This document shows positions 13,312-37,741 of a DNA stretch of 54,553 nucleotides, one piece after another; position 1 is the stretch's first letter; every line of letters begins with the position of its first letter. The translations under genes were made by a program, and so were the position numbers. This DNA comes from a virus. Location: positions 1-54,553 of the IMG/VR virus record IMGVR_UViG_3300050821_005055; one strand, given 5' to 3'. The notes under the pieces are model-generated. The model was not told the origin of the DNA and made no database searches. It worked only from the letters and a program-made list of their open reading frames with translations.

Positions 13312-14604
13312 TTGCTAGTCGGTGATCTGATTCAGGACGTCCGCGAAAGTATTTCGGACCAGCCCCAGGTCTTGCCTACGCCTGTCGCTCAACTTGTGGC
13401 CGGGGTAGTGGCCGCTGTCGGCTCAACGCTTCCCGCTGGAAACTACTTCCTGAACTACACGTTTAGGACTCCGTGGGGAGAGACGCTGCCTGGTACTGAA
13501 AGTGCCGCCGTTGGCCCGGTGGGAGCGAATCAAGGCATTCAGGTGACGGTGCCCGCTGCCTTGCCTCCGAGTGCTTCCGTCATCCGCGTGTACTTCACAC
13601 TTGCCGGGGGTGCAGCGGGGAGCGAACAGCAATTTGTCGAATCTTCCGTTCTGCCCTTTACCATCTCCGCTCCGGGTGCTGCAGGAGTTCCTCCCGGAAG
13701 GAATTCCGCCTACTTACCCGACATGGACGGAGACGCCATCAATGCCGCATCCTTGTTTCGCTGGATTAACCGCGGCCTCGAGCTCGCCTCGCAAGTATGC
13801 GGAGGACTCCTCGACTATTCCGGTATAGGCTCCATCTCCGGCCAGCCGCAGTACATCATTCCCGGTGAATGGAAACGCATCTCTTCCTGTTGGTACGACG
13901 GGTATCCGCTCGACATGGACGACGCGGGTAACTATTTCAGAAGGAACGCCATTACCGCTTCGGTCCTTTCTTCTGTAGCCCTTTCACTATTTACCGACCG
14001 CATGATGTTTGAAGTGTGGCCGCAGCCTGCAAGAACAGCGGCGCAGACGACACTTGCGGCTCCGCTGGCTCTTACCGATACACAGGCGGTCCTAACATCC
14101 ACGGCGGGGTTTCTCTTGACCAACGGCTTCGCGCAGATCGGGAATGAAATCGTTTCCTATTCGAGCATCGTCGGAAACACGCTGAAGAACTTAGTGAGAG
14201 GACTCTCAGGCACCACGGTTGCGGTTGCTGCAGCAGGGGTAGCGGTCAACGAACTGAATCTGTTCTGGCAGGGCTGGCGGATGTACGCTCCGGTATTCAA
14301 GCCCGGGGATTCACTCGTTACGCTTCCGATTCCCGTTGGATGGGGTTCTCTGCTTTTCAAATACGGCCTCGGCAGAGCGAAACTCGCGGAGCAGAACGTA
14401 GGCGATTATTCGAAACTCGAAGATGACTTCATCAAGAAACTGAGCGATTGGTACAGGACCAACCGCATTGTCGTGGGGCCGAAACAAGTTACTGGTGGCT
14501 GGCAGTCTCCGAATGAGTTGGAGACTTGGGGCTCGGGCCAGGGGGGCGGGTTCGTCATCCCGGCCTTGCTATTTTTTCTTTTTGTGATGAGGCATTTAGT
14601 TTAA
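13312..14604 (+). CDS. Head-tail adaptor-like protein with inserted beta domain (430 aa)
   Basis: TTG 13312 follows TAGGAG. The ends match the helical adaptor pattern: N-terminal LVGDLIQDVRESISDQPQVL and C-terminal FKYGLGRAKLAEQNVGDYSKLEDD. Between them is a Fn3/Ig-like beta insert (about residues 25-120) and a Thr/Ala-rich domain (about 245-310). The adaptor ring sits under the portal and seats the tail. It is longer than a typical adaptor (about 200 residues) because of these inserts. Confidence 0.6.
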   Translation: MLVGDLIQDVRESISDQPQVLPTPVAQLVAGVVAAVGSTLPAGNYFLNYTFRTPWGETLPGTESAAVGPVGANQGIQVTVPAALPPSASVIRVYFTLAGGAAGSEQQFVESSVLPFTISAPGAAGVPPGRNSAYLPDMDGDAINAASLFRWINRGLELASQVCGGLLDYSGIGSISGQPQYIIPGEWKRISSCWYDGYPLDMDDAGNYFRRNAITASVLSSVALSLFTDRMMFEVWPQPARTAAQTTLAAPLALTDTQAVLTSTAGFLLTNGFAQIGNEIVSYSSIVGNTLKNLVRGLSGTTVAVAAAGVAVNELNLFWQGWRMYAPVFKPGDSLVTLPIPVGWGSLLFKYGLGRAKLAEQNVGDYSKLEDDFIKKLSDWYRTNRIVVGPKQVTGGWQSPNELETWGSGQGGGFVIPALLFFLFVMRHLV

Positions 14605-17447
14605 TGAGCGCGACTTACAAACCGCTTCCAACCAAGCCGATGCTCAAGGGGATGAATGCGTGCACCGACTATGCGACACAGCCGCCAGGAACTTTTCCTC
14701 GAGGATCGAATTTGTTGCTCAACAAGCGCGGAGCTCTGGATGTCTGCGACGGCTCGCAACTCGTTCATGCGTTCAATGGACAGGTGCAAGCGGGACGCGG
14801 GAGAGATATGTGCAATTTCCTGTTCTCTCCAACAGGAGCCGCACGCTACTACTTGTCGTTGATGAAGGCGCTCGATATTCCGCTTGGCGCTCCGCTAAAT
14901 CTGAGCATTGTGACGGCGGCTGGCGGGACGCTTCCTGCCGCGACGTACTTCTATAAAGTCACGGCGATTGACGGCGCGGGCGGAGAAACGACCGTCTCGA
15001 ACGAAGTAAGCCAAGTCACACCTCTCAACAACAAAAACACGCTGAACTGGAACGTGGTTCCGAATGCTACCGGATACCGCGTCTACCGCGGCACGGTGAC
15101 AAATACTGAAATCCTGATGATTGGCACGGATATACCAGTGGCTCAGGCTGTTCCTGGCTCGCTCACAGTTCAATTTGTAGATACAGGGACCGATACTGCC
15201 GGAGCGGTCTATAACGTCACTTCGGCAAGAATTACCGGAGTCCCTCAGTTCGGGGGCTTGTTCATCTACAACGCGACGTTTACCGTTCCTTCGACCGTTG
15301 GCTTGAGCCTTGGATTGATCTTTAACTATGTTGCGGGAACGAATGCGCTGTTCAATACAGCATGGACCATCGGCGGAATTATCTCGAGTACGCAGTTCAG
15401 CGCTAGCCATTCCGGAGCGCAAATTGTCGGACTTATCACCGGCTCGACAACGACAGGAGGCACCTTTAGCGCCGGAGTGAATCCTCCAGTAGCGGACACT
15501 ACACAGCAAACGGCCCTGTTTCAGATGCCTGTTATTGCGGGGAATCCGGCACCGTTGCCAGTCTCTTACAACAATTCGAATATCGTTGCGCTGTTTCCCG
15601 CCGACCCGCTGATCTATGAAGGCGGTGGTGGTGGTGGATCCGGCGGCGGTGGTGGCACAGGCGGAGGAGGCTCGGGCGGTGGATCCGGCGGAGGTTCTTC
15701 TCCAACGCCGGCGGGCGGTATCCCCGGAAACGTTTCGACCATTCCGATGATGGTTGAGTTCACGAATCGCGTGGTTCTGGCTCTTGGCAACGGCTTCCCT
15801 CCGCAACTGTTTTCGGATTCGACCGGAACGCTTACGAATCCGGCGACGATTGCGGCCATCTCCGCTATCTCGGTGGATGCTTTCGGAGTTGTGACGGTGA
15901 CGACTTCGGTTCCTCATGGATTAGTGGCAGCGCAGTCCGGAGCCAACGTGGTCATCGCGGGAGTGGCGAACGCTCTCTATAACGGAGTATTTACAACGAT
16001 TGTCGTGGTGGACGCCACGCACTACAAGGTTTTCAATCGCGCGGCTATCGGGCAAGCGGCCTCCGCCGGCGGGACTTCCACGACGACGACGGTTCCGATC
16101 ACCAACTCTTTCGTTCCCGCCTTCCCTGCATGGGCGGCGAGCATCGAGTACAACGTCAATGCCGTAACCGTTCCGACCGTCTCGAACGGGTTTTACTACG
16201 TGGCGATCCAGGGCGGAGTATCAGGGAGCATACAGCCGACCTTTCCGGCAGGAGTAGGCCAGCAGGTAGGCGATGGCTCGATCCTGTGGCGGAATGCCGG
16301 TCCCATCAATACGGCCGCTCCCGCGCCTCCCGGCGCCGCGCACGCCACCGTCTATGCGGGTTCTTTATGGCTGTTCAATACTTCAGCGACGAATACCGCG
16401 TCAGGACTCGACGGGCCATGCTCTCTCCGTATGAGCGATGTGAACAATCCCGGTTCATGGAATCCCATCAACCAAGCGTTTCTCGACAAGGATGACGGCA
16501 CGGAAGGAATGGGGCTGGCTTCCTTCACCATCACCGCTCAAGGCATTCCTCCGGAAGGAAGCCTTGTGGCGTTCAAGAACTATTCGAGTTATCAGATTGT
16601 CGGAGTCTTCGGATCTCCGAACCTGACGATTCAGAGAATCAAGTCGGACATGGGCTGCCTCTCTCCGCGCAGCATTCAGTTCGTTCCCGGCTTTGGTATC
16701 GCGCGCTTCGCTCACTTGGGATTTGCCATGTTTGATGGAGTAGAAGACCGGATTATCAGCGAAGATATACGGCCATTCCTTTTTGGGACTGCGGACTTTT
16801 CAGAAAGCGACATCGTGGTTCTCGATTCGAACTTTCAGGCGGCCATGTGGGGATTCCAGACCGCTAATCCTCCGATGTTCTGCAATGCCATCCCTATCGG
16901 AAATTCGCAAGGCCAGTTGACACGAATCCTGTGCTACGACTTGGTGCTAAAGGCTTGGGCCGCTCCTGTCGATTTGCCATTTCCGATTTCGACCGGGGCG
17001 CAGTTCAGGACCGTTACGGCGAATCCCGTCACGATCTTGGGAGGGTTCTCGGATGGGCTTCTATCTCGCTGGCAGGCCGGGGACCAGGTGTGGGATTTCG
17101 GAGCAACAGGAGCGAGAAACCCTTCCGCTGTGAATTGGAGCGTCAAACTTCCGGAAGCGGTATCGCAGACCGCCGATCAGAAGATGAATTGCCGGAGAGT
17201 GGCGATTCGCGGGATTGCGACGAACTCCAGCGGAAAGATTACTGTCGTTCCGGTCGTAAATGGGACGAACAAGCCGAGTCAGTCTTACAACATTCCGTTG
17301 TCCGGCGACTTTGAGGTATTTTGTTCGTTCATGCGCGACGGCTTGCGCTTCTCTGCGATAATCAGCGGGAGCGGTCAGTTGGAACTGAACCGTTTCAGTT
17401 TCCATTGCACACCAAAGGAGGTCGGTGCCGCGGCCCTGATTTCATAA
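14604..17447 (+). CDS. Tail nozzle-like structural protein with Gly/Ser linker (947 aa)
   Basis: Starts ATG 14604 on a TAATG overlap; the longer frame from 14526 would run over the adaptor. The N-terminus (PLPTKPMLKGMNACTDYATQ ... LLNKRGALDVCDGSQ) and late segments (GCLSPRSIQFVPGFG, ILCYDLVLKAW) resemble the beta-propeller nozzle proteins of short-tailed phages. A Fn3-like segment (GGTLPAATYFYKVTAIDGAG, then ATGYRVYRGT) lies near 110-160. A natural run of about 27 Gly/Ser residues starts at about residue 340 and probably tethers two domains. The sequence is rich in Thr, Ala and Gly. Confidence 0.65.
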   Translation: MSATYKPLPTKPMLKGMNACTDYATQPPGTFPRGSNLLLNKRGALDVCDGSQLVHAFNGQVQAGRGRDMCNFLFSPTGAARYYLSLMKALDIPLGAPLNLSIVTAAGGTLPAATYFYKVTAIDGAGGETTVSNEVSQVTPLNNKNTLNWNVVPNATGYRVYRGTVTNTEILMIGTDIPVAQAVPGSLTVQFVDTGTDTAGAVYNVTSARITGVPQFGGLFIYNATFTVPSTVGLSLGLIFNYVAGTNALFNTAWTIGGIISSTQFSASHSGAQIVGLITGSTTTGGTFSAGVNPPVADTTQQTALFQMPVIAGNPAPLPVSYNNSNIVALFPADPLIYEGGGGGGSGGGGGTGGGGSGGGSGGGSSPTPAGGIPGNVSTIPMMVEFTNRVVLALGNGFPPQLFSDSTGTLTNPATIAAISAISVDAFGVVTVTTSVPHGLVAAQSGANVVIAGVANALYNGVFTTIVVVDATHYKVFNRAAIGQAASAGGTSTTTTVPITNSFVPAFPAWAASIEYNVNAVTVPTVSNGFYYVAIQGGVSGSIQPTFPAGVGQQVGDGSILWRNAGPINTAAPAPPGAAHATVYAGSLWLFNTSATNTASGLDGPCSLRMSDVNNPGSWNPINQAFLDKDDGTEGMGLASFTITAQGIPPEGSLVAFKNYSSYQIVGVFGSPNLTIQRIKSDMGCLSPRSIQFVPGFGIARFAHLGFAMFDGVEDRIISEDIRPFLFGTADFSESDIVVLDSNFQAAMWGFQTANPPMFCNAIPIGNSQGQLTRILCYDLVLKAWAAPVDLPFPISTGAQFRTVTANPVTILGGFSDGLLSRWQAGDQVWDFGATGARNPSAVNWSVKLPEAVSQTADQKMNCRRVAIRGIATNSSGKITVVPVVNGTNKPSQSYNIPLSGDFEVFCSFMRDGLRFSAIISGSGQLELNRFSFHCTPKEVGAAALIS

Positions 17448-18820: not shown

Positions 18821-19980
18821 TGGGCCTCGCGGGACTCACTGGCGCGTTACAGGGCATAGGCGAAGCGGGCGGGCAGGTTGCGCAAGGGAAACTCGATGCT
18901 CAGGCCGCAAAGCTGAAGGCCCTTATGGACTCGTTCAAGATGCAGAGCGAGACCGTCAATATCGCTGACACCCAGGAACGTTTGCGGAGACTGAAGTTAC
19001 AGCCCGATACCGAAGAGGATGCTCTCAGCCGCAGACTCGCCGGTTACGAAAAGGTTCTTGGCAAGCCGCTTACCCCACAGCAGAAAGAGGCTCTGATTCT
19101 AGGGACTCCTCCGCAAACAGGAGAAACAATCGAGGACGCTGAAAAACATCTTGGCCGGAAACTGACGGAAGAGGAAATGCAGCGTTGGTACAAGATTGCC
19201 CCTCCCAAGGGACCGGCTGGACGCGCTCCGAAGGTGGACAAGACCTACGATCCATCAGGGCACTTGCGGACGGCCTACCTTGACCCAGAGACGGCGGAAG
19301 TCGTGGCGTGGGGTCCGCTCGTACCTGAACGGGAAGCCTTTCATTACATTACAGATACAGAAGGCAATGTACATGCAGTACGAATGCCCACGGTCAGGGC
19401 TGTGACACCCGGGGAAATTCGCCAGAGCGAGAAAGCCGCGAAACAGTGGGAAGAGATTGCTCCGAAAGAGCATAAACCGCTTCCAAAAACGATGGTAAAG
19501 CCCACAGGAACGGCACAGGGAGGCACAGGAGCACCCAAGAGCGACGTTATCGGGCAAACGGCTCCGAAGTACACTCCTCCCCTACAGAACGCCCTAAAGA
19601 GCGCCCAGGCGGGCTATAAGAACTGGCTCGCTTCCATGAAGAACTCGGAGTTTCACACTCCCAAGACGGACCTCGCTATCGTCTTTTCGGCTGTGCGGTC
19701 GCAGGTCGAAGGCGCCGGCCGCATGACGAATACTGAGCTCGAGCGCGAATTGAAAGCGGGCAGTTTCGGGGACCGATTCCAGCGATGGTACAAAGGAGCC
19801 ACGGAAGGCACTTTGCCGGACGATCAGAGACAGGACTTAATTAACGTGATTCGAGATTCCTGGCTGGCATCGGCGGAGACGGCGCGTGCCGCATGGCAGT
19901 CGGACATGCCCGACAAGGAAATGCCCATTTACATCAAGGCCGATAATCTCGATGATCTAGCCGTGAAGGTTAAGCACTGA
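18820..19980 (+). CDS. Ejection-type internal virion protein candidate (386 aa)
   Basis: Starts on the TGATG overlap. The first 70 residues are helical (ALQGIGEAGGQVAQGKLDAQ), the middle is Pro-rich and charged, and LGRKLTEEEMQRWYKIAPP lies near 110. The C-terminus is folded (IVFSAVRSQVEGAGRMTNTE). No transglycosylase or peptidase motif is seen. Overlaps the next gene by one base. Confidence 0.55.
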   Translation: MGLAGLTGALQGIGEAGGQVAQGKLDAQAAKLKALMDSFKMQSETVNIADTQERLRRLKLQPDTEEDALSRRLAGYEKVLGKPLTPQQKEALILGTPPQTGETIEDAEKHLGRKLTEEEMQRWYKIAPPKGPAGRAPKVDKTYDPSGHLRTAYLDPETAEVVAWGPLVPEREAFHYITDTEGNVHAVRMPTVRAVTPGEIRQSEKAAKQWEEIAPKEHKPLPKTMVKPTGTAQGGTGAPKSDVIGQTAPKYTPPLQNALKSAQAGYKNWLASMKNSEFHTPKTDLAIVFSAVRSQVEGAGRMTNTELERELKAGSFGDRFQRWYKGATEGTLPDDQRQDLINVIRDSWLASAETARAAWQSDMPDKEMPIYIKADNLDDLAVKVKH

Positions 19981-22304
19981 TGGCTCAGGAAGCTCAAGAG
20001 ACGGTCAATGTCCGCACCCCGGGAGGGAAGGTCATTCCCATCCTGAAGTCGGATCTCGCTACGGCCATCAAAAGAGGGGCTGTTCCAGTGAATACTGCGG
20101 CGGAGGCGGCGAAGTCTGGGGACGTTCCACGTGGAACACAAGGCGCTGGCCCGACACTGTGGGAAGCCGCCAACAAGCCTATCGGCAAGGACGTCAACAA
20201 ACCCCTTCAGGGCATCAATCATCAGATGGACGACTGGATCGCCAAGAACGCTCCGGAAGGCACCCCAGATGCCGTCCTGAAGGCCGTCGTACAGGGAGCG
20301 AACTTGCCTTTCGACATCATGGGAGCGGTCGAAGAGGCTGGCCGCAGAACTCTGTCTCCTATCGGGGTTGCTACTCTCGGGCTGGCCTCTAAACTCCAAG
20401 CCTTACGTGAGTCCGCAACCGCTCCGAAGTTGTTGAAAACAGCCGTGGGAGCCGCTGAGACAGGCGCAGGAGCAGCATTTGGAGCATCGGGCATCAAGGA
20501 AGCAGCCACGAAGAAGAAGGGCGAAGGCCGTCTTGATGAGTTTGAGCGCCGCTTGAGTGCATTGGGACAAGGAATTATGGGGCTTGCGCCAGTCGCTCAT
20601 GCTGTCGGGCCATCCGTGAAAGAGGGAGCAAAAACTGGCTCTCAGGAATTACTCGGTATCGGTGAGAAGTCCGTAGATCGCGCGCGCACGGCTGCAGAAA
20701 GCGAAACAGCGGAGAAGTTGCAGAAGTTCGGGAAGTCCAAGGCGGAGCGCGAAGCCGAAGTAGCGGAACAGAAGGCCGAGAAGGAAAAACGGGACACACA
20801 AACCCTCAAAGAGCACAAGGAACTACAGGAACAAGAGAAAGCCCGGGCGCGCGGCGAATATGAAGCCGCCGAAGTGAAGCGCAAGGCTGAAACCGATGCA
20901 GCCAAGAAGAAATTCGCGGAAGATACGGCCGCGGCCGCTAAAGAGAGAGTCGCGCAGTCAAAAACGGAGACCGCGCGCCGCAGTTACGAAGATTTGAGAG
21001 ACCGCCACGCGGAAAGCACCGCAGAGAATCTCGACAAAGCCGAAAAGACAGAGAAACTATCTCTCGATGCCCGCTACGAGGACTTTCGCAAGAAGATTCT
21101 CGGGGTATCGAAGGAATTTCCGAACGGAACGCTGGAAGCCGATCTTTCTTCGGTTGGCGAGGCTGTAGTGAACGCAAGGAAGAATATCCTGAAGGGTTCA
21201 GCGGAAAGCATCAAGCAGTTCAACGACATTCTTGGGAAATTGAAGGACTTTATCGAGACTCCCGAAGGCGATTTGAAGCCTCTACCTGGCCAAAAGATTA
21301 CTGCCGATCAGTTGAACGGGTATGTGACGGAGTTGAACGAGAAGCTCTATGACTCTGGAGCGGCGGGCGATGTCAGGGATGCCCTGAAACACGTCCGGGA
21401 TGCCGCAGTAGGCAGCGTAACGGACTCCATCGGCAAGGGTCATGGGAAAACAGCCGTGAAAGCCTATTCTGAACTGAAAGGCGACTATAACGATTACATG
21501 GACACTTGGCGGGACACCGCTTCAGGGTCTCCGCTTCCCGCTATCAGGAAACTGCTTCGACAGCCGATGGCGGCTAAGAGAGGGATTCCCGTCTACCGCG
21601 AGGTTGCCAAGATTCTCGAGGGCGCACGTGGAGAAAAGGCTATTCCGGTCATCGCGCGCAAGAGAGCGTTCGGAGCCGATCCTGCGCTAGCCGCAAAACT
21701 CCGCAAAACAGGCGAAAGAATTTCCGCACTTCCCAAGACGAAGGGTGTTCCTGAAGTGGCAAGGCCGGAATATCCAGCCCCGATCACCAAGGCCAAAATC
21801 AATCCGCCGAAACCGCCAGAGATCGAACCCTTCAAGGCTCGCGGGAAGGACCCGGAGCGGCCGGAGACGAAACCGTTTAGCGCGGAAGAGTTCAGGAAAG
21901 AAAAAATAGGGCAGAAGGCCGAGAGTTTGAGTAATCTGTCCATGTGGGACATCGCGGCAATGTCGGCGGCTATTGAGGAAGTGTTCAGAGGGAAGTTCGG
22001 TACAGCGGCGGCGGCAGGATCTATTCCGGTCATCAAGCGATTACTCGCAAGGGGACTGAGCAACGAAGGCGTGATTGACTGGCTATCGAAGGACAAGCCC
22101 GTCCCGGAGCGCCGTTCACCGTCTAGCAAGTCTGGTGGACCGGCAGGGGTAGAGAGACGGTCGGCGTCGGATAAGGCGATGCAACGGGAAGTTTTGCGAG
22201 AGTCCATCGCCAACGCCGAGAAGCAGAAAGCCGCAAAAGGTGACCCGGGCGGCATCATTGCTCGACAGATAGCAGATTTTCGGGAGATGTTAGCAGGCTT
22301 GTAG
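19980..22304 (+). CDS. Large coiled-coil ejection-type protein (774 aa)
   Basis: Residues about 230-350 form one long Lys/Glu/Ala coiled coil (KAEREAEVAEQKAEKEKRDT, continuing to KTETARRSYEDLRDRH). On either side are Ala/Gly-rich helical regions, including a mildly hydrophobic stretch near 80-170. It is too short and in the wrong place for a tape measure. A long DNA-ejection protein fits better, given the three related-context genes upstream. No enzymatic motif recognised. Confidence 0.55.
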   Translation: MAQEAQETVNVRTPGGKVIPILKSDLATAIKRGAVPVNTAAEAAKSGDVPRGTQGAGPTLWEAANKPIGKDVNKPLQGINHQMDDWIAKNAPEGTPDAVLKAVVQGANLPFDIMGAVEEAGRRTLSPIGVATLGLASKLQALRESATAPKLLKTAVGAAETGAGAAFGASGIKEAATKKKGEGRLDEFERRLSALGQGIMGLAPVAHAVGPSVKEGAKTGSQELLGIGEKSVDRARTAAESETAEKLQKFGKSKAEREAEVAEQKAEKEKRDTQTLKEHKELQEQEKARARGEYEAAEVKRKAETDAAKKKFAEDTAAAAKERVAQSKTETARRSYEDLRDRHAESTAENLDKAEKTEKLSLDARYEDFRKKILGVSKEFPNGTLEADLSSVGEAVVNARKNILKGSAESIKQFNDILGKLKDFIETPEGDLKPLPGQKITADQLNGYVTELNEKLYDSGAAGDVRDALKHVRDAAVGSVTDSIGKGHGKTAVKAYSELKGDYNDYMDTWRDTASGSPLPAIRKLLRQPMAAKRGIPVYREVAKILEGARGEKAIPVIARKRAFGADPALAAKLRKTGERISALPKTKGVPEVARPEYPAPITKAKINPPKPPEIEPFKARGKDPERPETKPFSAEEFRKEKIGQKAESLSNLSMWDIAAMSAAIEEVFRGKFGTAAAAGSIPVIKRLLARGLSNEGVIDWLSKDKPVPERRSPSSKSGGPAGVERRSASDKAMQREVLRESIANAEKQKAAKGDPGGIIARQIADFREMLAGL

Positions 22305-22820: not shown

Positions 22821-25205
22821 ATGCGTCGATGGCTTCTAGGGATACTGGCGTTCCTTGCGTTGGGACAGGTTGCTCGGGCTCAATTCACGACCGTTTCAGC
22901 AACCGTGAAAGATCCATCTTCGAACTTGTACGTCAGTTGCCGAGGGAACATAGACTTTGTTCCAAGCCCGACCGCCACTCAGGTTCCTCTACTCAGTGGT
23001 TCGACATTCCAGACCTCGGTTCCGATAGCCTCGTGTGATAGTTTTGCGAATTTCACTGCCGTTCTCGCGGACAATCTAGTTGTAAGTGATGGCCATACCG
23101 GAGCGACGGCAAGTGCTTGGAAGTTTTCCATCTGTTCCTCCGGCACTCCTCCGGTCTGTTTCAATGCAGTACTGACCATCACTGGGGCCACACAGAATAT
23201 CACCGCAGCATTACAGGCGGTATCGGCTCCTCTTCCTGGAAGCGTGGTCACATCGTCAACGAATCTTCAAGGACCTGGTTTCATAGCTGGAACATTCAGC
23301 GGGACGCATACCGAGACTGGCGTTGTCACGTTTTCGAATGCCTCAAGCACCTTCGCGGGGAATGCAGCGACGGCTACAAGCGCGACAACGTCAACGGCAG
23401 CGACGAATGCCACGAACCTTGTGGGACCTGGAACAGCCACGGGGAATTACACCCACAGCGGGACAGAGACGTTCGCACAATTGAATGGCTGTCAGGGCGT
23501 GAATGCCTTGCAGACCTTGCCGCAAGCCATCGCTGCGGTATCAAATCCTGGTTGCATCCTCGTTTCTATCAACTATGCGCTTGCCGCGAGCGCGGTTGTT
23601 CCCTCTGGCGTCACCCTGGGATTTCAGGGCAATGGCGGAATCACAACTACAGGATTCACGCTGACCGTTAATGGACCAATTATCGCTCCGCCAGTACAGA
23701 TATTCTTTGGGACTGGTACGCTTGCACTGGGAGGCTTGGCGAATCCGCTCCATGCTGTCTGGTTCCCAGGGGCGGATATACTCGCTCAGATTGGGAATGC
23801 TTATGCCGCTTCCTCTACGACTTTTGCGACGATCTTGGTAGACCCGCAAAGCACAGGAGCTTGCTGGGTCGCAACTTCCACAGCCAACCTCAACGTCGCT
23901 GGTAAAGCTGCCATCGTTCAAGGCACGGTTCCGCCTATGGTCAGCAGCGCAAACGTCGTAACCGGCTCCTGCATCGACTACACGCCGACAACGGCAACCA
24001 GCGCGTTCGAACTCGATTGGACGCCAACAACAGGCGGCGAGTTCCCGACTGGGGCTGGCATTCGAGACTTGGCGCTAATCAATGGAACCACGTTCACGAA
24101 TGGCGGCTCTGGCAGTTTAGCGACGGGATTCTACATTGGACGCAACAATGCTGGCACGCGCAAGGGTCTTTATTCCAACGTCACGGTCATGGGCTTCGGG
24201 AACAACTTTGTAAAAGCAGACAACAGCGGTCTTGGATGGGGTATCCTGTGGTTCCATGACAGTATTTCCCACGGAAATGTCGGGATTAACTACAGCCTGA
24301 TAACCAGCGCAGGCAGTGAAAACGATACAATCCAAGATTCCAATCTTATTGTCAACGGGACTGGCGTCAAGTTCAACGATAACGGCTTGGGCGGATCACT
24401 TACCATCATTGGTGGGTCAGTTGACGCGAACACGGTCTGCGGCATCAACCTTGGTTCCGGCACTAGCCTGGCAATCCTGAATTCTACAGGTGTCCACTAT
24501 GAAAACAACGGGACAGCAAACGTTCAGTATGTTTGCAGCGGAAGCCTTTCCTCGCAGGTATTTCTAACTGGCGGGGATATTTTGGACGATACGTCGGGCG
24601 GCTCGACGGCACAATCTTTCTTCAGCTTCGGCCACGGCTCGATGATGGGATTTACATTTGCTGCCGGAAGTGGCGGGCGCACATACTCCAGCTTGCCGTT
24701 CAATATTGGTTCTTATGGGCGCGTAGACATCATCAACACAGCTACCACGGCTTTCCCAACTCTTGCATCGCTCGTCAACACCTTTACCACCCGCGTCACG
24801 GAAACGAAGTCGGGAACGACGGGAAGAGACAGCCTCGCTCAACTTTACATCAACAACGCGAACGGCACGCAAACTCTTCTAATTTCCAATGCCGCCCCGA
24901 CGATTGCGGCAGGTGGATGCGGAGGGTCGGCTGCGAGCATCTCGAACAATAATGGCACCGGCGCTTTTTGGATAAACACAGGCACGGCTCCGACAGCGGC
25001 TGGCTGCACCGTCACACTTCCAACGGCCTCGGCCGGCTGGAATTGTTTCGTCACAGACATCACGACCAATTCAACCAGCGTGTTCCTGCAAAAGCAAACT
25101 GGCGGCTCTACAACGACGGCAATCCTTCAGAATTTCAGCGACGTTGCTGTAGCGACCGCACCAACAGCAAATGACATTTACAGGGTGAGCTGCCATGCCG
25201 ATTAA
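22821..25205 (+). CDS. Exported tail fibre or spike 1 (794 aa)
   Basis: The N-terminus MRRWLLGILAFLALGQVARA followed by Q21 is a textbook Sec signal peptide (RR, hydrophobic core, A-R-A cleavage). Residues about 22-140 form a module with the motif AWKFSICSSGTPPVCF, shared with the fibre at 25395. Thr/Ala/Ser/Gly repeats follow, then a right-handed beta-helix-like region (about 330-640, short Asn/Gly-turn repeats such as VMGFGNNFVKADNSG). The C-terminus is a compact beta domain ending NDIYRVSCHAD. It should bind the host surface; why a virion fibre carries an export signal is unclear. Confidence 0.7.
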   Translation: MRRWLLGILAFLALGQVARAQFTTVSATVKDPSSNLYVSCRGNIDFVPSPTATQVPLLSGSTFQTSVPIASCDSFANFTAVLADNLVVSDGHTGATASAWKFSICSSGTPPVCFNAVLTITGATQNITAALQAVSAPLPGSVVTSSTNLQGPGFIAGTFSGTHTETGVVTFSNASSTFAGNAATATSATTSTAATNATNLVGPGTATGNYTHSGTETFAQLNGCQGVNALQTLPQAIAAVSNPGCILVSINYALAASAVVPSGVTLGFQGNGGITTTGFTLTVNGPIIAPPVQIFFGTGTLALGGLANPLHAVWFPGADILAQIGNAYAASSTTFATILVDPQSTGACWVATSTANLNVAGKAAIVQGTVPPMVSSANVVTGSCIDYTPTTATSAFELDWTPTTGGEFPTGAGIRDLALINGTTFTNGGSGSLATGFYIGRNNAGTRKGLYSNVTVMGFGNNFVKADNSGLGWGILWFHDSISHGNVGINYSLITSAGSENDTIQDSNLIVNGTGVKFNDNGLGGSLTIIGGSVDANTVCGINLGSGTSLAILNSTGVHYENNGTANVQYVCSGSLSSQVFLTGGDILDDTSGGSTAQSFFSFGHGSMMGFTFAAGSGGRTYSSLPFNIGSYGRVDIINTATTAFPTLASLVNTFTTRVTETKSGTTGRDSLAQLYINNANGTQTLLISNAAPTIAAGGCGGSAASISNNNGTGAFWINTGTAPTAAGCTVTLPTASAGWNCFVTDITTNSTSVFLQKQTGGSTTTAILQNFSDVAVATAPTANDIYRVSCHAD

Positions 25206-25209
25206 TTGC

Positions 25210-25398
25210 ATGAAACATAAACTACTGATTCTCTTTCTTTTGCTCTTGTCGGCCAGCCGACTATCCGCTCAGACCCAGGTCGGCGGCGGCGGCTCCGGCT
25301 CGGGGTTCCCGGTAACGACACCGGTTACGGTGAATGTCGTGGCGATTGTCACTTTGACTCCCGTTGCCAAGACTTACAACGTAAGGGTGGTGCCATGA
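25210..25398 (+). CDS. Small exported protein (62 aa)
   Basis: From ATG 25210 the first 20 residues (MKHKLLILFLLLLSASRLSA, then Q21) are a Sec signal peptide. The mature part is only about 42 residues, Gly/Val/Thr-rich (GGGGSGSGFPVTTPVTVNVV). An ATG at 25195 would add five residues and overlap the fibre more. It lies between two fibres, so it may be a chaperone, a linker or a periplasmic accessory. Unknown. Confidence 0.6.
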   Translation: MKHKLLILFLLLLSASRLSAQTQVGGGGSGSGFPVTTPVTVNVVAIVTLTPVAKTYNVRVVP

Positions 25399-28148
25399 GA
25401 CGAATATTCTTCTTGATCGCGCTTCTACTCCTCGCAACAGCGGGCGCCAGCGGGCAGAACAGCTATACAACTGTTACTGCGGTCGTAGTCGATAACAGCG
25501 CCGCAGCCACACCATATGCGCTTGGCACATTCAACGTCACGCTGTTGAATACGACAGGACAGCAGGCGACCTTTGGTGGGAGTGCCTCGTTCCAGCAGGT
25601 CTACAGCGGCCAATCTCTATCTGCGACCGGGGCTATGTCTATCGTTCTTCCCTCAACAGCGGTAATGAGTCCTCCGGGATTAGAGTGGAAGTTTTCCATC
25701 TGCGCTAACCCTCAGCAGATCGCAAGCATCTTTCCACTTCCCCCGCTGCCCTGCTTTTCTTTCACGTCTACAGGAACACTTATCAGTGGGGCTTCTGTAG
25801 ATATCTCCGCTCAACTTAAGGCAGTAGCGGCGACGATCCCTCTTGCAGGCGGCTCCGGCGGGGGCATCACGAATCCGATCACAACTGGCGTGACAGTGGG
25901 GACGGGAGGGTCGGTATCGGCTACGGGGACGGGGACGATTACGGCTACAACAGTAGCAGGCTACCAAGGCAAACTTTTCAATGCTACGGACCCGGCGTAT
26001 GGGCTTAGCACCTCTAACACAGCGGCTCAAAACAATACAGCCTTAACTGCTCTGTCTACCGCAGTGAATGCCTACACGCCAGCTAATCCACAGGACCGCC
26101 CAGTTGTGTACATCCCAGGAGGCAATGCTGGGGCCGCAGCGACCTATGCCTATTCAGGTGGCCTTGTTTTTACGCAGGCCATGACGCTTGAATGCGGCCC
26201 CGGCGCGATGCTGAACTATACGGGAAGTGCCCACGCCGCTGATTTTGGCCCTACAGGTCTGACCTTCAGTGGAGGTACAACGAATGCGACCACTGCCCAA
26301 CTCACATCTCAGTACATCGTGAATGGTTGTGGCTGGACTGGCGGAGCGTCCTTCACTCAGGGATTATTTTTCAATCCGATGGTTTTTTCTCCTCAAGTCT
26401 CCTACAACATGTTTTATAATTTCGGTCCTAATGCTTCGGCAACCGCCTACGCCATATACATAAGCATAAACATCTCAGACGTTGCCATCGGGCCGCGCAA
26501 TCAATTTATCAATCTGGACGGTGTGGCCAGAAATGGTGTTCGTGTAGATGACACCAGCGGTTTTAGCGACCAAGCGCATATCTTTCAGAATTCTAGTTAC
26601 AACGGGCTATCAGTATCAGGAGTTTCAGTTAGTAATAACGTACCTACAGGTGTACTATTTTGGGTTTCTGGCAACGGTTCCTTAGTCGATGGAAACGACC
26701 TAGGATTCTGTGCACCTTGCGTCCGCGTAGGTCCTGGCGTTGGGTCAGGCGTAGTCAATGGTACGCGAGTGGTCCATAATTACATGGAGGGACCACAAGG
26801 TACAGCAACCATCCCATTGATTCAATACGGCGACCCTGGTTCTGCGGTATTTGTTGATTCGCCGTTCTTTCTCGGCAATTTCATGTTCACGAATGGCTCA
26901 GCACCATGTTTTGGGCCTTCAAGTGCGACGACGGGCATCTCAAATGCCATGATTGCTAACACTCGGATCTCCGGATGCGCCCTTCCACTCGTTGTTGAAA
27001 ACAATGTGGCAGGACAAATAGGAAATAGCTTTTGGGATGTGATTGGCTGCTCCACTGGTCAGTGCAACCCAAACCAAATCGTAACTGTATCCGGCAACGT
27101 GACGCCTTGGGGCCAGCCTAACTATTCATTATATTTGCCAGACGGCACGACGGCACAAGCTGCTATGGGATTCGCTTCCACCACAGGCGGAGGAACTCCA
27201 GGAGATTTTGGACTAAGGAAGCGGGTAGATACTGCTTCCCCATCACTTGAACTGATTGGTACACCAACTGGGGGTAGCACGGTAGGATTCAGGGTTTCAT
27301 CACAAACAGCAGGCAGCAATTACGTGGAGTTTGGACTGAATGTCCAGCCAGACGCCGGGACATTTCCTGATTCTGGGTTTACGGTTCGACACTATTTGGC
27401 CTCTGTTCTTGCTGAAGATGCGCTCCTCAGCAACGAGAACAATCGCGCCATCACGTTCTACACGACTACTGGGGGGTCCCGAACCAAGAAATTGAGCATT
27501 CTAAATGCAGGCCAATTATCTCACATCGAAAGCGCGGCACCATCCGGGACTGCCGGGAGCACAATACTTTATCCGAATTCAACAGATCACACTTATCACT
27601 ATAATGCCAACAATAACGGCGACAGTGCTTTTACGGGCGCATGGAACTGTACGAATGTAACGCCTGTGACGGTGAGCGCAAACGTCTCGACTGACCAAAA
27701 CTTGATGACTTGCACGGTTCCGGCAGGGACTTTGAATCGTGTCAACCGTACGCTGAAGATTTGGCTGTCAGGCGTGTTTTCAACTCCTGCTGCGTCTACT
27801 GCCGTCATCAACGTCAAAATCAAGTTAGGAGCACTCACGCTTGCCACTTACACAAGCACCGCGCTTGGCGGGGTTGCGGCTACGAATGATCAATTCAACG
27901 TCACAGCATACAACACCGTCCAGACGGCAGGAGCAACTGCGGCTTTCGAAGCGCACGGAGTGATGGTGATTGACTTGGGTGTTGGGAACACGGTCGCCGA
28001 TAGTTCGTTCGCGGACGTGAACACAGCTACGGTGAGCAGTGTGGATACGACGGCTTCTCAGACACTTCAAATCACCATTGGATTCTCGACGGCCAGCGCG
28101 AGCAACACTGCGACACAGCGGCAACTTATCGTGGAAACGGTGAACTAA
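25395..28148 (+). CDS. Exported tail fibre or spike 2, beta-helix type (917 aa)
   Basis: It begins with the signal peptide MRRIFFLIALLLLATAGASG, then Q21. The N-terminal module carries LEWKFSICANPQQ and Cys-rich FPLPPLPCFSF, homologous in layout to the fibre at 22821. From about 190 to 580 it looks like a pectate-lyase-type beta-helix (VVYIPGGNAG entry motif, then stacked turns with NNV/NGV). A C-terminal beta domain follows (about 750-917). Such folds often bind or cut surface polysaccharide, but no catalytic pair is obvious. ATGA overlap with the small gene before it. Confidence 0.7.
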   Translation: MRRIFFLIALLLLATAGASGQNSYTTVTAVVVDNSAAATPYALGTFNVTLLNTTGQQATFGGSASFQQVYSGQSLSATGAMSIVLPSTAVMSPPGLEWKFSICANPQQIASIFPLPPLPCFSFTSTGTLISGASVDISAQLKAVAATIPLAGGSGGGITNPITTGVTVGTGGSVSATGTGTITATTVAGYQGKLFNATDPAYGLSTSNTAAQNNTALTALSTAVNAYTPANPQDRPVVYIPGGNAGAAATYAYSGGLVFTQAMTLECGPGAMLNYTGSAHAADFGPTGLTFSGGTTNATTAQLTSQYIVNGCGWTGGASFTQGLFFNPMVFSPQVSYNMFYNFGPNASATAYAIYISINISDVAIGPRNQFINLDGVARNGVRVDDTSGFSDQAHIFQNSSYNGLSVSGVSVSNNVPTGVLFWVSGNGSLVDGNDLGFCAPCVRVGPGVGSGVVNGTRVVHNYMEGPQGTATIPLIQYGDPGSAVFVDSPFFLGNFMFTNGSAPCFGPSSATTGISNAMIANTRISGCALPLVVENNVAGQIGNSFWDVIGCSTGQCNPNQIVTVSGNVTPWGQPNYSLYLPDGTTAQAAMGFASTTGGGTPGDFGLRKRVDTASPSLELIGTPTGGSTVGFRVSSQTAGSNYVEFGLNVQPDAGTFPDSGFTVRHYLASVLAEDALLSNENNRAITFYTTTGGSRTKKLSILNAGQLSHIESAAPSGTAGSTILYPNSTDHTYHYNANNNGDSAFTGAWNCTNVTPVTVSANVSTDQNLMTCTVPAGTLNRVNRTLKIWLSGVFSTPAASTAVINVKIKLGALTLATYTSTALGGVAATNDQFNVTAYNTVQTAGATAAFEAHGVMVIDLGVGNTVADSSFADVNTATVSSVDTTASQTLQITIGFSTASASNTATQRQLIVETVN

Positions 28149-28291
28149 TGATTTTCTTCCGCAGCAGAGGCCCTTATCGCAAAAGTACACGCGGGGAATT
28201 GTGCTTCGCGGTTTTGTACGTGGGTAGTGTATTTATTCTCGTTTGGTGGCTGCAACATTGGGTGCGCGGAATTTGTATAGGAACAACCTAA
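28148..28291 (+). CDS. Small membrane protein (47 aa)
   Basis: ATG overlaps the fibre stop (TAATG). A basic head (MIFFRSRGPYRKSTRGEL) is followed by a hydrophobic span (FAVLYVGSVFILVWWLQHW). Single-pass with the basic end predicted inside. Unknown role. Confidence 0.5.
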   Translation: MIFFRSRGPYRKSTRGELCFAVLYVGSVFILVWWLQHWVRGICIGTT

Positions 28292-28310
28292 TGAATGTGG
28301 AGGGGATTTC

Positions 28311-28409
28311 ATGGACGCCTTATATTTTCTGGCAGGGATTGGTTTTGGAGTGTTGATTGGTTGGCTCATGTTCAAATATGGGCCGCAGCAACTAGGGGGT
28401 AGGTGGTGA
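28311..28409 (+). CDS. Small membrane protein (32 aa)
   Basis: GGAGGGG precedes ATG 28311. MDALYFLAGIGFGVLIGWLM is one glycine-rich membrane span, followed by FKYGPQQLGGRW. The stop overlaps the next start. The glycine spacing suggests helix packing or self-association. Confidence 0.5.
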   Translation: MDALYFLAGIGFGVLIGWLMFKYGPQQLGGRW

Positions 28410-29143
28410 AACGCTATCTACTTCTCTTCGCTCTTTTCCTCTGCGCTCTTACTAGAACCCCTTCGGCGCAGTCACAGGCACTATCTCTTCCCCGCCAAAA
28501 GCCAGTGACCTGCTCGGCCAACGGATCCCCGCAGACAAGCTGTTACTTTTTGATGCCTCCAAATTCAACGGCCTTCCTGTTTGCGAGGTTTAGCGCTAGC
28601 GGCCAAGTAACTGGCAGTCGTGGCGAAACGTGGACCCGTGACCAATGCGTGACTTTTACGGGGGATTGCGAATTCCATGCTAACTTCGGCAACTTTTGTT
28701 CGCCATCATGCCTAGCTGGAGATACGCTGGCCTTTTCGGGCGACCAATTTACAGACGTAATTATCCTCGTCTACGATGGGACCTGGAACTTTGATGCTGG
28801 CAATTTCGGCACCTACGCGAATCAGAACTCAGTCTTTCCAGACTGCACAAACGGCGGCGACTGCCCTTATGCTTGGACGCTACCCATCGAAACTGAGGCA
28901 GGAGCGCTAATCCATTCTTGGGGTGAAAGTTGCCCGCCCAACAGCGGGGGCGTTATACGGCCCGGTCCGGGCTTTACGCTGGAGGCTCGTTCAACCTGCC
29001 TTTTTGTCGAGGACATGATTGCACCGACAACTGGCGTGTACATAGGCTCCTGGATGGGTCGCAACGCAGACGGCACAGAAAGCGGAGGAGGCCACTGGCT
29101 TGCTGGTGTGGCGGCTTATAAGAGACAAGTGAATCAGCAATGA
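28406..29143 (+). CDS. Exported cysteine-rich protein (245 aa)
   Basis: GTG 28406 is preferred (another GTG lies one codon upstream). The signal peptide MKRYLLLFALFLCALTRTPS ends at A21, followed by Q. The mature part has about a dozen cysteines in close groups (GDCEFHANFGNFCSPSC, PDCTNGGDCPYAW), so disulphide bonds in the periplasm or outside are expected. Beta-rich, possibly lectin-like (GHWLAGVAAYKRQ at the end). No family recognised. Third long member of the exported block. Confidence 0.65.
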   Translation: MKRYLLLFALFLCALTRTPSAQSQALSLPRQKPVTCSANGSPQTSCYFLMPPNSTAFLFARFSASGQVTGSRGETWTRDQCVTFTGDCEFHANFGNFCSPSCLAGDTLAFSGDQFTDVIILVYDGTWNFDAGNFGTYANQNSVFPDCTNGGDCPYAWTLPIETEAGALIHSWGESCPPNSGGVIRPGPGFTLEARSTCLFVEDMIAPTTGVYIGSWMGRNADGTESGGGHWLAGVAAYKRQVNQQ

Positions 29144-29154
29144 AGGAGGACTCC

Positions 29155-29754
29155 ATGAAGAAAATGTTTTTGCTCGGCTTGCTGCTTCTGCCAGCCAGCA
29201 ACTTAGCCCAGACTTCTCTTCTTCAAGCATCCTCTGCCATCTCTCAGACAGCGGTCGTCTCTGTGACCCTGAACAATCAAATCGCCGGAGATGACAACCT
29301 CGTGGCAGTGAGCTTTTGTGAAAGTGCCTGTTCTCTAGACCCTGGGAACGACAAAGTAAGAGTTTCTGATACTCTGGGGAACTACTGCGAATTCCAAGGC
29401 TCCGTCACGAATGCCAATCAGCAATTATCTCTCTGGCGCTGCTCCCATATAAAAGCCGCGGCATCGAACACCGTGCGAGCCTATATATTCTTAGGGCCGA
29501 ACGAGCCTGCCGGCGCGACGATCAATTCTTCCATGTCCGCGTCGGAATGGTCCCCTCTCGGCGCGCGGATTCTAGCGCCACAGCCAGGAGATTTCACCTT
29601 TTCCGTAGCGATCGGAGCCAATGGAGGCCCAAGCACGAACGCTTTGGTGGTAAACCCTTGGAACGGCTTTATCGTCTCGCAGGCTGGCCCAGGGCCTCTT
29701 GTATGGGTATGCCCGGCACCTCTGGCGAGTATGACGGTGGGATTCAGACCATGA
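29155..29754 (+). CDS. Exported beta-sandwich protein (199 aa)
   Basis: Start at ATG 29155 with AAGGAGGA just upstream. Signal peptide MKKMFLLGLLLLPASNLA, then Q19. The mature domain follows the pattern GDDNLVAVSF ... VRVSDTLGNYCEFQG ... LSLWRCSHIKAA ... SASEWSPLG, an adhesin-like beta sandwich often seen in secreted environmental proteins. Two Cys pairs could form disulphides. The stop overlaps the LuxR-type gene (ATGA). Confidence 0.65.
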   Translation: MKKMFLLGLLLLPASNLAQTSLLQASSAISQTAVVSVTLNNQIAGDDNLVAVSFCESACSLDPGNDKVRVSDTLGNYCEFQGSVTNANQQLSLWRCSHIKAAASNTVRAYIFLGPNEPAGATINSSMSASEWSPLGARILAPQPGDFTFSVAIGANGGPSTNALVVNPWNGFIVSQAGPGPLVWVCPAPLASMTVGFRP

Positions 29755-30074
29755 AACGCGTTTCAGTCGAATGCCGCAACGGGCAGTACGCTATCGTGGT
29801 GCGTATCCCGATTGACGTGCAGTTCGAAAAGGGCTGTATCACCATAAAGGAAAGCGACCTGCCGTTCGCCTTGACGAGCCGGGAGAAGCAGGTTCTCACA
29901 GGAATCTGCAATTCGAAATGCAACAAGGAAATCGCTAAGGACTTGAACGTGTCAGACAGAACGGTAAAATTCCATGTGTCGAGCCTCTTGACAAAGGCCC
30001 AAGTGAGCAGCAGGTACGAACTGGCGGAGCGGTATCGGTATAATTCGAAGTCAGGGGATGTGGGGATTCAATGA
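29751..30074 (+). CDS. Orphan LuxR/GerE-type HTH regulator (107 aa)
   Basis: Residues 40-95 read LTSREKQVLTGICNSKCNKE, then IAKDLNVSDRTVKFHVSSLL and a YELAERY end, a full LuxR-family HTH with the conserved N-K-E-I-A and T-V-K-x-H residues. The 38 residues before it are a small beta region, not a receiver or autoinducer domain. The start at 29751 is fixed by the ATGA overlap. It may switch late genes, or act on the host genes that govern surface traits; both are inference. Confidence 0.8.
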   Translation: MKRVSVECRNGQYAIVVRIPIDVQFEKGCITIKESDLPFALTSREKQVLTGICNSKCNKEIAKDLNVSDRTVKFHVSSLLTKAQVSSRYELAERYRYNSKSGDVGIQ

Positions 30075-30711: not shown

Positions 30712-30894
30712 ATGCGATGCGAGCGCAACAACTGCGCGTGCGGGAATGCCGAAATTGCCCCGGAGAAGATGTACTACGTCACGCTTGGAGCGCGACAGGT
30801 TCCGGTTCCCTATTGCAAGAAAGCCATTGAGGAGATGGAGAAGGAAAACGCGGCTTATCCGAAACAGAATCAGTGGTACAAGAAGAAGGGGTGA
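30712..30894 (+). CDS. Small cysteine-rich protein (60 aa)
   Basis: MRCERNNCACGNAEI and a later PVPYCKKAIEEM give four cysteines that can bind zinc. The ATG starts immediately after the holin stop. Cytosolic, no signal. Unknown role inside the lysis region. Confidence 0.55.
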   Translation: MRCERNNCACGNAEIAPEKMYYVTLGARQVPVPYCKKAIEEMEKENAAYPKQNQWYKKKG

Positions 30895-30896
30895 GA

Positions 30897-31364
30897 ATGG
30901 ATTCAATCAGTGAGGAAAGACTGGCCCTCGTTCATCCGGAACTCTCGCGTCGTATCCACCAGCTCGCGGATATGGTTTCCTTTCCGTTCCTCGTAACGCA
31001 AGGGCTTCGCACCTTCGCACAACAGGATGCGCTCTACGCGGAAGGGCGCACAGCCCCCGGGAGGATCGTCACCGAGGCTCGTGGCGGCTACTCCATGCAC
31101 AATTTCGGTCTAGCCGTGGATGTCGCTCCCACAGACGGGCTCGGAGGCATCGACTGGAACGGGAAAGACGCCAAGTGGGAGGAGATTCTTGCCAAAGCCT
31201 CTTCCTGTGGGCTAGCGGAAGGCGCTGCGTGGCGAACGTTCCCGGATGAGCCTCACCTATACCCCCAAGAGGTTCCAGCCTCTCCTACGGACGCTATGCG
31301 CGCTCTTTTCGTAGAAAGTGGTTTACAGGCAGTCTGGGATTCCTTTACATTGGTGCCACTATGA
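30897..31364 (+). CDS. Endolysin, M15-type L,D-endopeptidase (155 aa)
   Basis: It cuts the peptide stems of peptidoglycan to release progeny. FLVTQGLRTFAQQDALYAEG (31-50) and YSMHNFGLAVDVAP (65-78) contain the family S-x-H-x-x-G-x-A-x-D signature. H68, D75 and H120 (in FPDEPHLY) are the expected zinc ligands. ATG 30897 is chosen over upstream frames because AAGAAGGGG lies just before it. No signal peptide, so it needs a holin. Length matches single-domain phage enzymes of this class. Confidence 0.9.
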   Translation: MDSISEERLALVHPELSRRIHQLADMVSFPFLVTQGLRTFAQQDALYAEGRTAPGRIVTEARGGYSMHNFGLAVDVAPTDGLGGIDWNGKDAKWEEILAKASSCGLAEGAAWRTFPDEPHLYPQEVPASPTDAMRALFVESGLQAVWDSFTLVPL

Positions 31365-32395: not shown

Positions 32396-32512
32396 ATGTT
32401 CAAACTTACCAAAACGGTATTCGTGTGGGTGCTGGCCTCGGCTATCGTAGGCGGGCTGCTAGGTGCAGGACTCGGATTGCTTGCAAAATGGGAGTTAGGA
32501 ACGTGGAGTTAG
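32396..32512 (+). CDS. Tiny glycine-zipper membrane protein (38 aa)
   Basis: MFKLTKTVFVWVLASAIVGG, then LLGAGLGLLAKW: a single span with Gly every 3-4 residues. No good SD, and it lies after the terminator hairpin. Its last four bases overlap the convergent methyltransferase. Only moderately supported. Confidence 0.4.
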   Translation: MFKLTKTVFVWVLASAIVGGLLGAGLGLLAKWELGTWS

Positions 32513-33537
32513 AAGGCTAGGACTTCCTGACTCAGCCGCTTTGCTGCTATCTCGCAGTACTTCTCTTCGATTTCTATGCCGACTCCTCGAGAGTGGTTTT
32601 TCTTCGCCACAAGTAGGGTTGTTCCAGTTCCCGCGAAAGGGTCAAGCACGCAGTCCCCGGGCCCGGCGCCCGCCAGAATGCACGGCAGAATCAATTCCTC
32701 TGGATAGGTTGCTGTGTGGTCGCCTTCACCTTGCGCTGGAACGACGGTCCAAACTGTTCGCTTGTTGCGCTCTGTCACCGGCAAGCAGACCGCAGTCTCA
32801 AAACTCGGATTACTTTTCTCTATGCCAGGTGTCCCGGCTGCTGCCTTGCGCCCAACCGCTTTCATCGGGCCATTCGTTTTCGCTCCGCCGTTCGCGCGAT
32901 GTGAGCCAATTTGTGCCGCGAGATTATGACTGAGACGCATGTGCGTGTTTTTGCTGACTGGCTCGAGCGTGGCTTCCTGGTTGTAGTAATACTTCTCGGA
33001 CCGGGAAAGCAAAAAGATGTATTCATGCGCTCCGGTAGGGCGGTCAGTAACCGACTCAGGCATCGTATTCGGCTTACTCCAAATGATGTCGCGCCGCAGA
33101 TACCAGCCATCCTCCTGAAGCCGAAAGGCGAGACGCCAGGGTAGACCGATGAGGTCTTTCTTTTTCAGATTCCAGCACGCGGGAGGCTTTCGATCTCGAG
33201 GACCGCCGCATACCGCAGAGTGGTTGTAATCTTGCGAGATTCCGCCGCCGCCCCATCCGTGACCGCCCGCAGCGTAAGTATCGCCACAGTTCACCCACAG
33301 CGTTCCGTCCTCCGCAAGAATCCTTTGCACGTCCAAAAATATCGCACCGAGTTTTTCCAGCCATTCCGCCGGCGTCTCTTCCTGACCGATGCCTTCGGCC
33401 TCTCCGTAATCGCGGAGTCCCCAATAAGGCGGGGAAGTCACGCAACAGCGAATAGAATCACTCTCCAGCGTCGGCAGCACTTCTCTGCAATCTCCGTGGT
33501 AGATGGTGATGCCCGCGTGGGAATAGTACGGCTTCAC
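32509..33537 (-). CDS. DNA methyltransferase, beta class (342 aa)
   Basis: Motif IV TSPPYW (residues 34-39) comes before motif I VLDPFAGTGTTLLVA (about 295-309), the order of the beta class. TSPPYW is most typical of N4-cytosine enzymes, though N6-adenine is possible. GTLWVNCGDTYAAG and RRDIIWSKPN are further conserved blocks; the middle region (about 175-265) should hold the target-recognition part. No paired restriction gene is present, so it probably shields phage DNA from host restriction. Starts GTGA over the protease stop. Last gene of the leftward operon. Confidence 0.88.
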   Translation of the reverse strand: MKPYYSHAGITIYHGDCREVLPTLESDSIRCCVTSPPYWGLRDYGEAEGIGQEETPAEWLEKLGAIFLDVQRILAEDGTLWVNCGDTYAAGGHGWGGGGISQDYNHSAVCGGPRDRKPPACWNLKKKDLIGLPWRLAFRLQEDGWYLRRDIIWSKPNTMPESVTDRPTGAHEYIFLLSRSEKYYYNQEATLEPVSKNTHMRLSHNLAAQIGSHRANGGAKTNGPMKAVGRKAAAGTPGIEKSNPSFETAVCLPVTERNKRTVWTVVPAQGEGDHTATYPEELILPCILAGAGPGDCVLDPFAGTGTTLLVAKKNHSRGVGIEIEEKYCEIAAKRLSQEVLAF

Positions 33538-37570: not shown

Positions 37571-37741
37571 TCACAGGAAGTCTTCCTCTACTTCGTACTC
37601 TTTTACCTTCTCTCGTTCACTCTTCTGCAACCGACCTTTCGCGTATTCAATCGCCTGAGCCGCGGTCGGCGCGCTAAACTCGGTCTCAGGTACCGGGATC
37701 GTCCGAATTGCTCCGCTTTTGAATCTGACGATGACTTTCAC
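37571..37741 (-). CDS. Hypothetical small protein (56 aa)
   Basis: GTG 37741 overlaps the previous stop (GTGA) with AGAGGA upstream. Reads MKVIVRFKSGAIRTIPVPET, then TAAQAIEYAKGRLQKSEREK and an acidic end. It looks like a small beta-alpha unit. Function unknown. Confidence 0.6.
   Translation of the reverse strand: MKVIVRFKSGAIRTIPVPETEFSAPTAAQAIEYAKGRLQKSEREKVKEYEVEEDFL

Follow-up and report, generated by a model that had tools for sequence, protein, structure and literature searches.

A fibre block with predicted Sec signal peptides

The window analyzed here, the whole of a 54.5-kb virus record (IMG/VR record IMGVR_UViG_3300050821_005055), contains five consecutive open reading frames (ORFs) at positions 22821-29754, which sit between the structural and ejection-protein genes and the lysis genes, the location expected of a tail fibre block. 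A preliminary description of this DNA had claimed that the five products carry Sec signal peptides, each with a basic end, a hydrophobic core and a cleavage site ending in A or G, and that two are long fibre/spike proteins of 794 and 917 residues. All five ORFs, including the two long ones, were confirmed at these positions, and the three signal-peptide elements are seen in each protein. The genes and their predicted signal peptides are:

22821..25205, + strand: fibre/spike protein 1, 794 residues; 14 cysteines in the mature part
Codons 22821-22880, + strand: predicted signal peptide of fibre/spike protein 1, MRRWLLGILAFLALGQVARA/QFTT
Parts of fibre/spike protein 1: the N-terminal domain, a beta-sandwich, covers about residues 21-140; the middle is variable; residues 683-793 make up an exchangeable C-terminal module
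25210..25398, + strand: small protein, 62 residues; predicted signal peptide 25210-25269, MKHKLLILFLLLLSASRLSA/QTQV; 42-residue mature part
25395..28148, + strand: fibre/spike protein 2, 917 residues; predicted signal peptide 25395-25454, MRRIFFLIALLLLATAGASG/QNSY; 12 mature cysteines
28403/28406..29143, + strand: Cys-rich protein, 246/245 residues, with tandem GTG starts; predicted signal peptide at about 28403-28468; 10 mature cysteines
29155..29754, + strand: 199-residue protein; probable, weaker signal peptide 29155-29208, MKKMFLLGLLLLPASNLA/QTSL, with N at −3

Signal peptides were called by a home-made rule that combines a basic n-region, an uncharged hydrophobic core and the −3/−1 rule, with a score cut-off of 8 that was set after the window and two relatives had been viewed and before the wider set was. 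The predicted cuts are GQVARA/QFTT, SRLSA/QTQV, AGASG/QNSY, TPSA/QSQA (or SQA/LSL) and SNLA/QTSL, and at the preferred cut the +1 residue is Q in all five proteins. Four of the five pass the rule. The fifth, the 199-residue protein, fails the strict −3 requirement from its own start and scores 7.8 from an upstream start; AAGGAGG lies just 5′ of its start, it has a homologue in the sister phage G008, and it probably, rather than certainly, carries a signal peptide. By the rule, then, the claim of five signal-bearing proteins in a row is borne out, with four clear cases and one weaker one. Shuffled and internal controls pass at rates of 0-2.7%: shuffled fibre N termini pass in 40 of 1500 cases, shuffled N termini of other genes in 4 of 2290, and internal fibre windows in 0 of 948. 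A run of five signals in a row is far beyond chance. The 62-residue protein, which starts inside the ORF at 25195, also resembles the start of a 401-residue signal-peptide protein in a related contig (G024).

Signal peptides mark the fibre block throughout the phage group

Relatives of the window phage were found through the major capsid protein, which yielded first 20 and later 80 IMG/VR loci, with identities of 54-95%. The sample comprised 36 contigs (34 found via the capsid protein and 2 via fibre similarity) and the window, giving 37 contigs and 1.9 Mb. In this sample 82 of 94 complete fibre-like proteins, meaning low-charge, non-core proteins of at least 300 residues, carry a signal, as do 2 of 159 capsid, tail-core, portal and terminase proteins; these counts use author-chosen settings (a low-charge cut-off of 13%, a relaxed score of 7.4 and a core list), the first two of which were set after the data had been seen. 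Two of the 12 fibre-like proteins that fail the rule show a signal by eye. The strict counts agree (75/152 versus 2/383, the latter being other genes of at least 300 residues), and under the strict rule no member of five core families passes (0/62, 0/41, 0/31, 0/33 and 0/37). The signals are conserved and confined to the fibre block, and the trait belongs to the whole phage group, which is wider than the preliminary description had it.

Cysteine parity and covariation

In bacteria with disulfide chemistry, exported proteins favour even cysteine numbers (Dutton et al. 2008, cited in PMC7678975). Among the mature signal-peptide fibres, 79 of 88 have an even cysteine count (p ~2e-15; this p value and that given below overstate independence because the sequences are related), compared with 50 of 121 signal-less low-charge proteins and 253 of 552 other proteins of at least 200 residues (41-46%). 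When one fibre is taken per genome, the mean is 29.5 even counts in 32 (range 26-32). The signal-peptide fibres are also richer in cysteine, with 2.08 per 100 residues versus 0.80 in the signal-less low-charge proteins.

A separate sign comes from the N-terminal domain of the fibres (N-domain), in which columns 21 and 60 both hold cysteine in 21 proteins and neither does in 19, with no exception (p 7.6e-12). A signal-like segment lies immediately ahead of 38 of its 40 copies; the other two proteins (445 and 226 residues) begin, with M, at the domain itself and contain no cysteine at all. Taken together, parity and covariation, two separate signs, indicate that the fibre proteins evolved in an oxidising compartment.

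A small protein family adjoining the fibres has a signal in G017 (18421-18822) and G004 (21529-21927) and none in G009 (38238-38534) and G026 (16339-16629). This family, with and without signal, is a second natural experiment alongside the fibre N-domain.

Conserved N-terminal domain and exchanged modules

The window phage and its sister G008 have capsid proteins that are 95% identical; their first fibres are similar at residues 1-151 only (62%) and are unrelated over the remainder. Residues 683-793 of the first window fibre are 75% identical to another phage. The second window fibre has an N-terminal domain of the same family as the first, and its C-terminal module is 76% shared with another phage. 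Judged from these alignments, the arrangement of a conserved N-terminal domain, a replaced middle and an exchanged C-terminal module matches the usual layout of a receptor-binding fibre.

The N-domain was modeled as a beta-sandwich with a predicted local distance difference test score (pLDDT) of 93. Its closest viral fold matches in BFVD include, with modest scores, tail-fibre domains of podo- and N4-like phages, and the domain gave a weak match to a PHROG tail-fibre family (E 0.047). The full fibre proteins had no match in Pfam or PHROGs, fibre searches of a 50,697-record phage collection returned no match, and sequence searches against solved structures returned none. A full-length model of the 917-residue protein was discarded (mean pLDDT 35). 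One of 12 N-domain members matched PF13620, which describes host carboxypeptidase-regulatory-like secreted proteins (E 5e-4); a search of 200 kb of Granulicella DNA with the N-domain profile, which bears on an origin of the domain from host PF13620-type proteins, found nothing.

Signal peptides on the fibres of cultured phages

Tunturi_1 is a podovirus of Tunturiibacter psychrotolerans (PMC11924767). Its gp12, gp14 (annotated tail spike), gp16 and gp17 (annotated virion structural protein) have predicted signals and contain 20, 20, 1 and 32 mature cysteines, respectively. In the siphovirus Tunturi_4, signals are predicted on gp114 and, from an upstream TTG start, on gp111, with 20 and 12 mature cysteines. 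A signal-bearing protein of the window group is 40-42% identical over ~600 residues to Tunturi_1 gp17 and Tunturi_4 gp114, both of which are annotated virion structural protein, and a gp17 homologue that is 97% identical is present in Tunturi_2 (the only gene of that phage viewed, with its N terminus unread). Tunturi_1, Tunturi_2 and Tunturi_4 (PP887698, PP885685 and PP885687), phages of Tunturiibacter (Acidobacteriota), resemble the window group in having large structural-annotated proteins with Sec signals, mostly even cysteine counts and a homologous 600-residue spike module. They differ in that their heads are unrelated in the searches run (Tunturi_4 being a siphovirus) and in lacking the window N-terminal domain. 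The paper describing the Tunturi phages makes no mention of signal peptides. The annotated start of Tunturi_4 gp111 (L087, PP885687) is at 80433; an in-frame TTG at 80076 would add the signal, and the gene is possibly misannotated.

The nearest cultured capsid relatives are the Myxococcus phages Mx8 and Mx9 (Myxoctovirus), whose major capsid proteins are 28-29% identical to that of the window. Mx8 p64 (L217, 36781-37854) carries the predicted signal MRYLPSAAGLAVGVLLGVIISVSTPASA/TRN, and its Mx9 homologue (Mx9_p14), which is 78% identical and annotated putative tail fiber protein, is also signal-bearing. After the cut, the Mx8/Mx9 fibre aligns to the very start of the signal-less fibres of BUCT555 (MPRNGSGTYLLP) and ppBjS10J-1. 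In Mx8 and Mx9, the signal thus appears, from this alignment, to have been placed ahead of an ordinary fibre N terminus. Signals are also found on the adjoining Mx8 p66 and Mx9_p15 (Mx9_p14/p15: L224, 1501-3310). Unlike the window phage, however, Mx8 and Mx9 are temperate, and their fibres are unrelated to the window's in sequence, have two cysteines only and are encoded apart from the main structural block. The window capsid protein (11914-12771) is ~26-29% identical to those of Mx8/Mx9, BUCT555 and ppBjS10J-1; it represents a large group of soil phages for which the phage collection holds no close isolate.

The residue at +1 is Q in 70 of 93 phage signal proteins, and in this the phage proteins are like the predicted signals in 200 kb of a Granulicella plasmid, of which 9 of 13 have Q at +1. 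This host-like cleavage site, together with the spike module common to a relative of the window phage and Tunturi_1/4, makes an acidobacterial host likely for the window phage. The nearest cultured capsid relatives infect Myxococcus.

Proposed export and assembly of the fibres

The conserved signals, host-like A/Q sites and cysteine pairing support real export to an oxidising compartment, and we consider it very probable, from sequence, that the window proteins are exported. In the proposed reading, the window belongs to a podovirus-like soil phage whose host is most likely acidobacterial, and the five genes would be its receptor-binding (fibre/spike) block. Each product would be made as a precursor, cross the inner membrane by Sec and be cut by signal peptidase I, usually at A/Q, and the larger products would acquire disulfide bonds as they fold in the oxidising periplasm. 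The cytosol would be the place of assembly for heads and tail core, which lack signals. Using the conserved N-terminal domain, the exported fibres would then dock on the tail core, either once the inner membrane gives way in lysis or in the lysate, comparable to the in vitro addition of P22 tailspikes to finished heads.

Late-assembling virion fibres are favoured by the module layout, by the genes' location, flanked by those for ejection proteins and lysis, and by the Mx8/Mx9 fibre with its added signal; gene position and layout likewise suggest that the fibre proteins are present in virions. Taken as a whole, the proposal seems, on balance, somewhat probable: receptor-binding fibres would be exported by Sec and trimmed, would gain disulfide bonds in the periplasm and would join the virions around lysis. 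The chances are about even for a two-compartment virion, in which cytosolic, DNA-filled heads and tail core would be joined only at lysis by oxidised, hardened fibres that possibly serve as an interim coat on the infected cell.

Several points weigh against this proposal. To our knowledge, docking after export is unprecedented in tailed phages. The 199-residue window protein has a weak −3 position and an odd cysteine count (5). Structural matches to the N-domain are weak, the best in BFVD having an E of 2e-4, and a Protein Data Bank search with the model gave none below 0.001, just generic sandwich matches. Scans of 84,980 bacterial and archaeal genomes with the major capsid protein and N-domain returned no relative or provirus, and the host assignment is indirect. 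In addition, Mx8 p64 is absent from the genes annotated virion structural protein. The fibres of Tunturi_3 lack signals, and because this phage has the same host strain as Tunturi_1, the host does not impose the signals; a strict host trait was rejected on these grounds.

The main rival is that the five genes encode secreted, non-virion surface proteins with fibre-like folds, such as polysaccharide-degrading enzymes, adhesins or superinfection blockers, whose role would be to cover the cell or to release progeny from the matrix. This is a serious possibility, if not a probable one. Signal peptides and cysteine pairing are adaptations to the periplasm or the outside and fit such proteins as well, and the annotation of Mx8 p64 just noted is in keeping with them. 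Moreover, hosts are known to encode exported enzymes that have the fold of a phage tailspike, as in Pantoea WceF, although WceF is a bacterial gene product with a twin-arginine translocation (Tat) signal and is encoded outside a phage structural block (PMC7949094). However, sister phages hold signal-less copies of the N-domain, the one in G009 belonging to the fibre-like gene shortly after the large pre-fibre gene, and the N-terminal domain of the Mx8 fibre is common to signal-less fibres of other phages. A conserved N-domain with exchanged tips is, moreover, what virion fibres usually show, and apart from the tail core nothing else in the group stands out as a receptor-binding candidate. The preliminary description had offered fibres assembled in the periplasm or outer membrane, secreted surface-modifying enzymes and proteins coating the infected cell as unranked options; export to an oxidising compartment is upheld by the signals, A/Q sites and cysteine pairing, which supports the description in part.

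A hydrophobic N terminus alone is ambiguous, and the signal-like segments might instead anchor the fibre in the tail or a membrane. We regard this as improbable, given that the cores are short and followed by A/G|Q sites as in acidobacterial secreted proteins, that cysteine parity and covariation are unexpected for the cytosol and that domain copies without this segment exist. It is more improbable still that the signals are a product of chance or artefact, through biased composition, wrong starts or an over-calling predictor. The predictor is indeed home-made and its thresholds author-set (8, later 7.4; charge 13%), the latter two after data inspection, but the null rates are 0.2-2.7% and 0/948, the cysteine test is independent of it and the trait recurs in cultured phages with annotated starts.

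Relation to known phage systems

As in podoviruses such as P22, T7 and N4-like phages, the window fibre block lies near ejection-protein and lysis genes and encodes long, low-charge proteins with a conserved N-terminal domain and variable tips, and the modeled N-domain resembles podo- and N4-like fibre domains. In contrast, the fibres and tailspikes of those phages are cytosolic and lack signal peptides, whereas signals and paired cysteines are the rule in the window group. Filamentous phages also use Sec signals on receptor-binding and coat proteins (pIII and pVIII), but their particles assemble in the membrane and are extruded, while the window phage is tailed and has lysis genes. Our literature searches, which left subscription papers largely and the Mx8/Mx9 literature outside their range, found no report of signal peptides on tail fibres.

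The fibres of tailed phages are generally taken to be cytosolic proteins, a rule that whole soil phage groups, cultured Acidobacteriota and Myxococcus phages included, appear to break. If they do, a two-compartment assembly route exists, a phage-encoded signal peptide does not necessarily indicate a host-derived secreted enzyme, and the annotation of such proteins as auxiliary metabolic genes needs care. In earlier work, the absence of signal peptides from diversified phage proteins was read as supporting an origin in phages (PMC6199706). A wealth of disulfides may also make the fibres unusually stable. Direct testing is possible in the cultured Tunturi and Mx8 phages.

Other genes of the window

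Genes outside the fibre block include:

2736: large terminase gene
11914-12771: major capsid gene
13312..14604, + strand: second tail-core family, in which no signal peptide is predicted (0/41), used as a negative control
14526..17447, + strand: tail-core family that lacks a signal peptide, as do its homologues (0/62), and serves as an internal negative control; the product is probably the tail tube/nozzle or an internal virion protein
19980..22304, + strand: 774-residue coiled protein without signal peptide; weak match to a DNA-ejection pilot protein, probable ejection protein
30873..31364, + strand: endolysin (M15/VanY peptidase) of the lysis module, downstream of the fibre block

The 774-residue coiled protein is encoded by the final large gene preceding the fibre block. 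Between the fibre block and the lysis genes, positions 29751-30074 (+) encode a 107-residue protein with a LuxR/GerE-type helix-turn-helix (Pfam E 2e-16), a possible regulator. An N6/N4 DNA methylase (32509-33537, −; Pfam E 3e-47) lies at the edge of a leftward gene cluster, and the product of 37738-38574 (−) matches the N-terminal phage replisome organiser family (Pfam E 2e-5).

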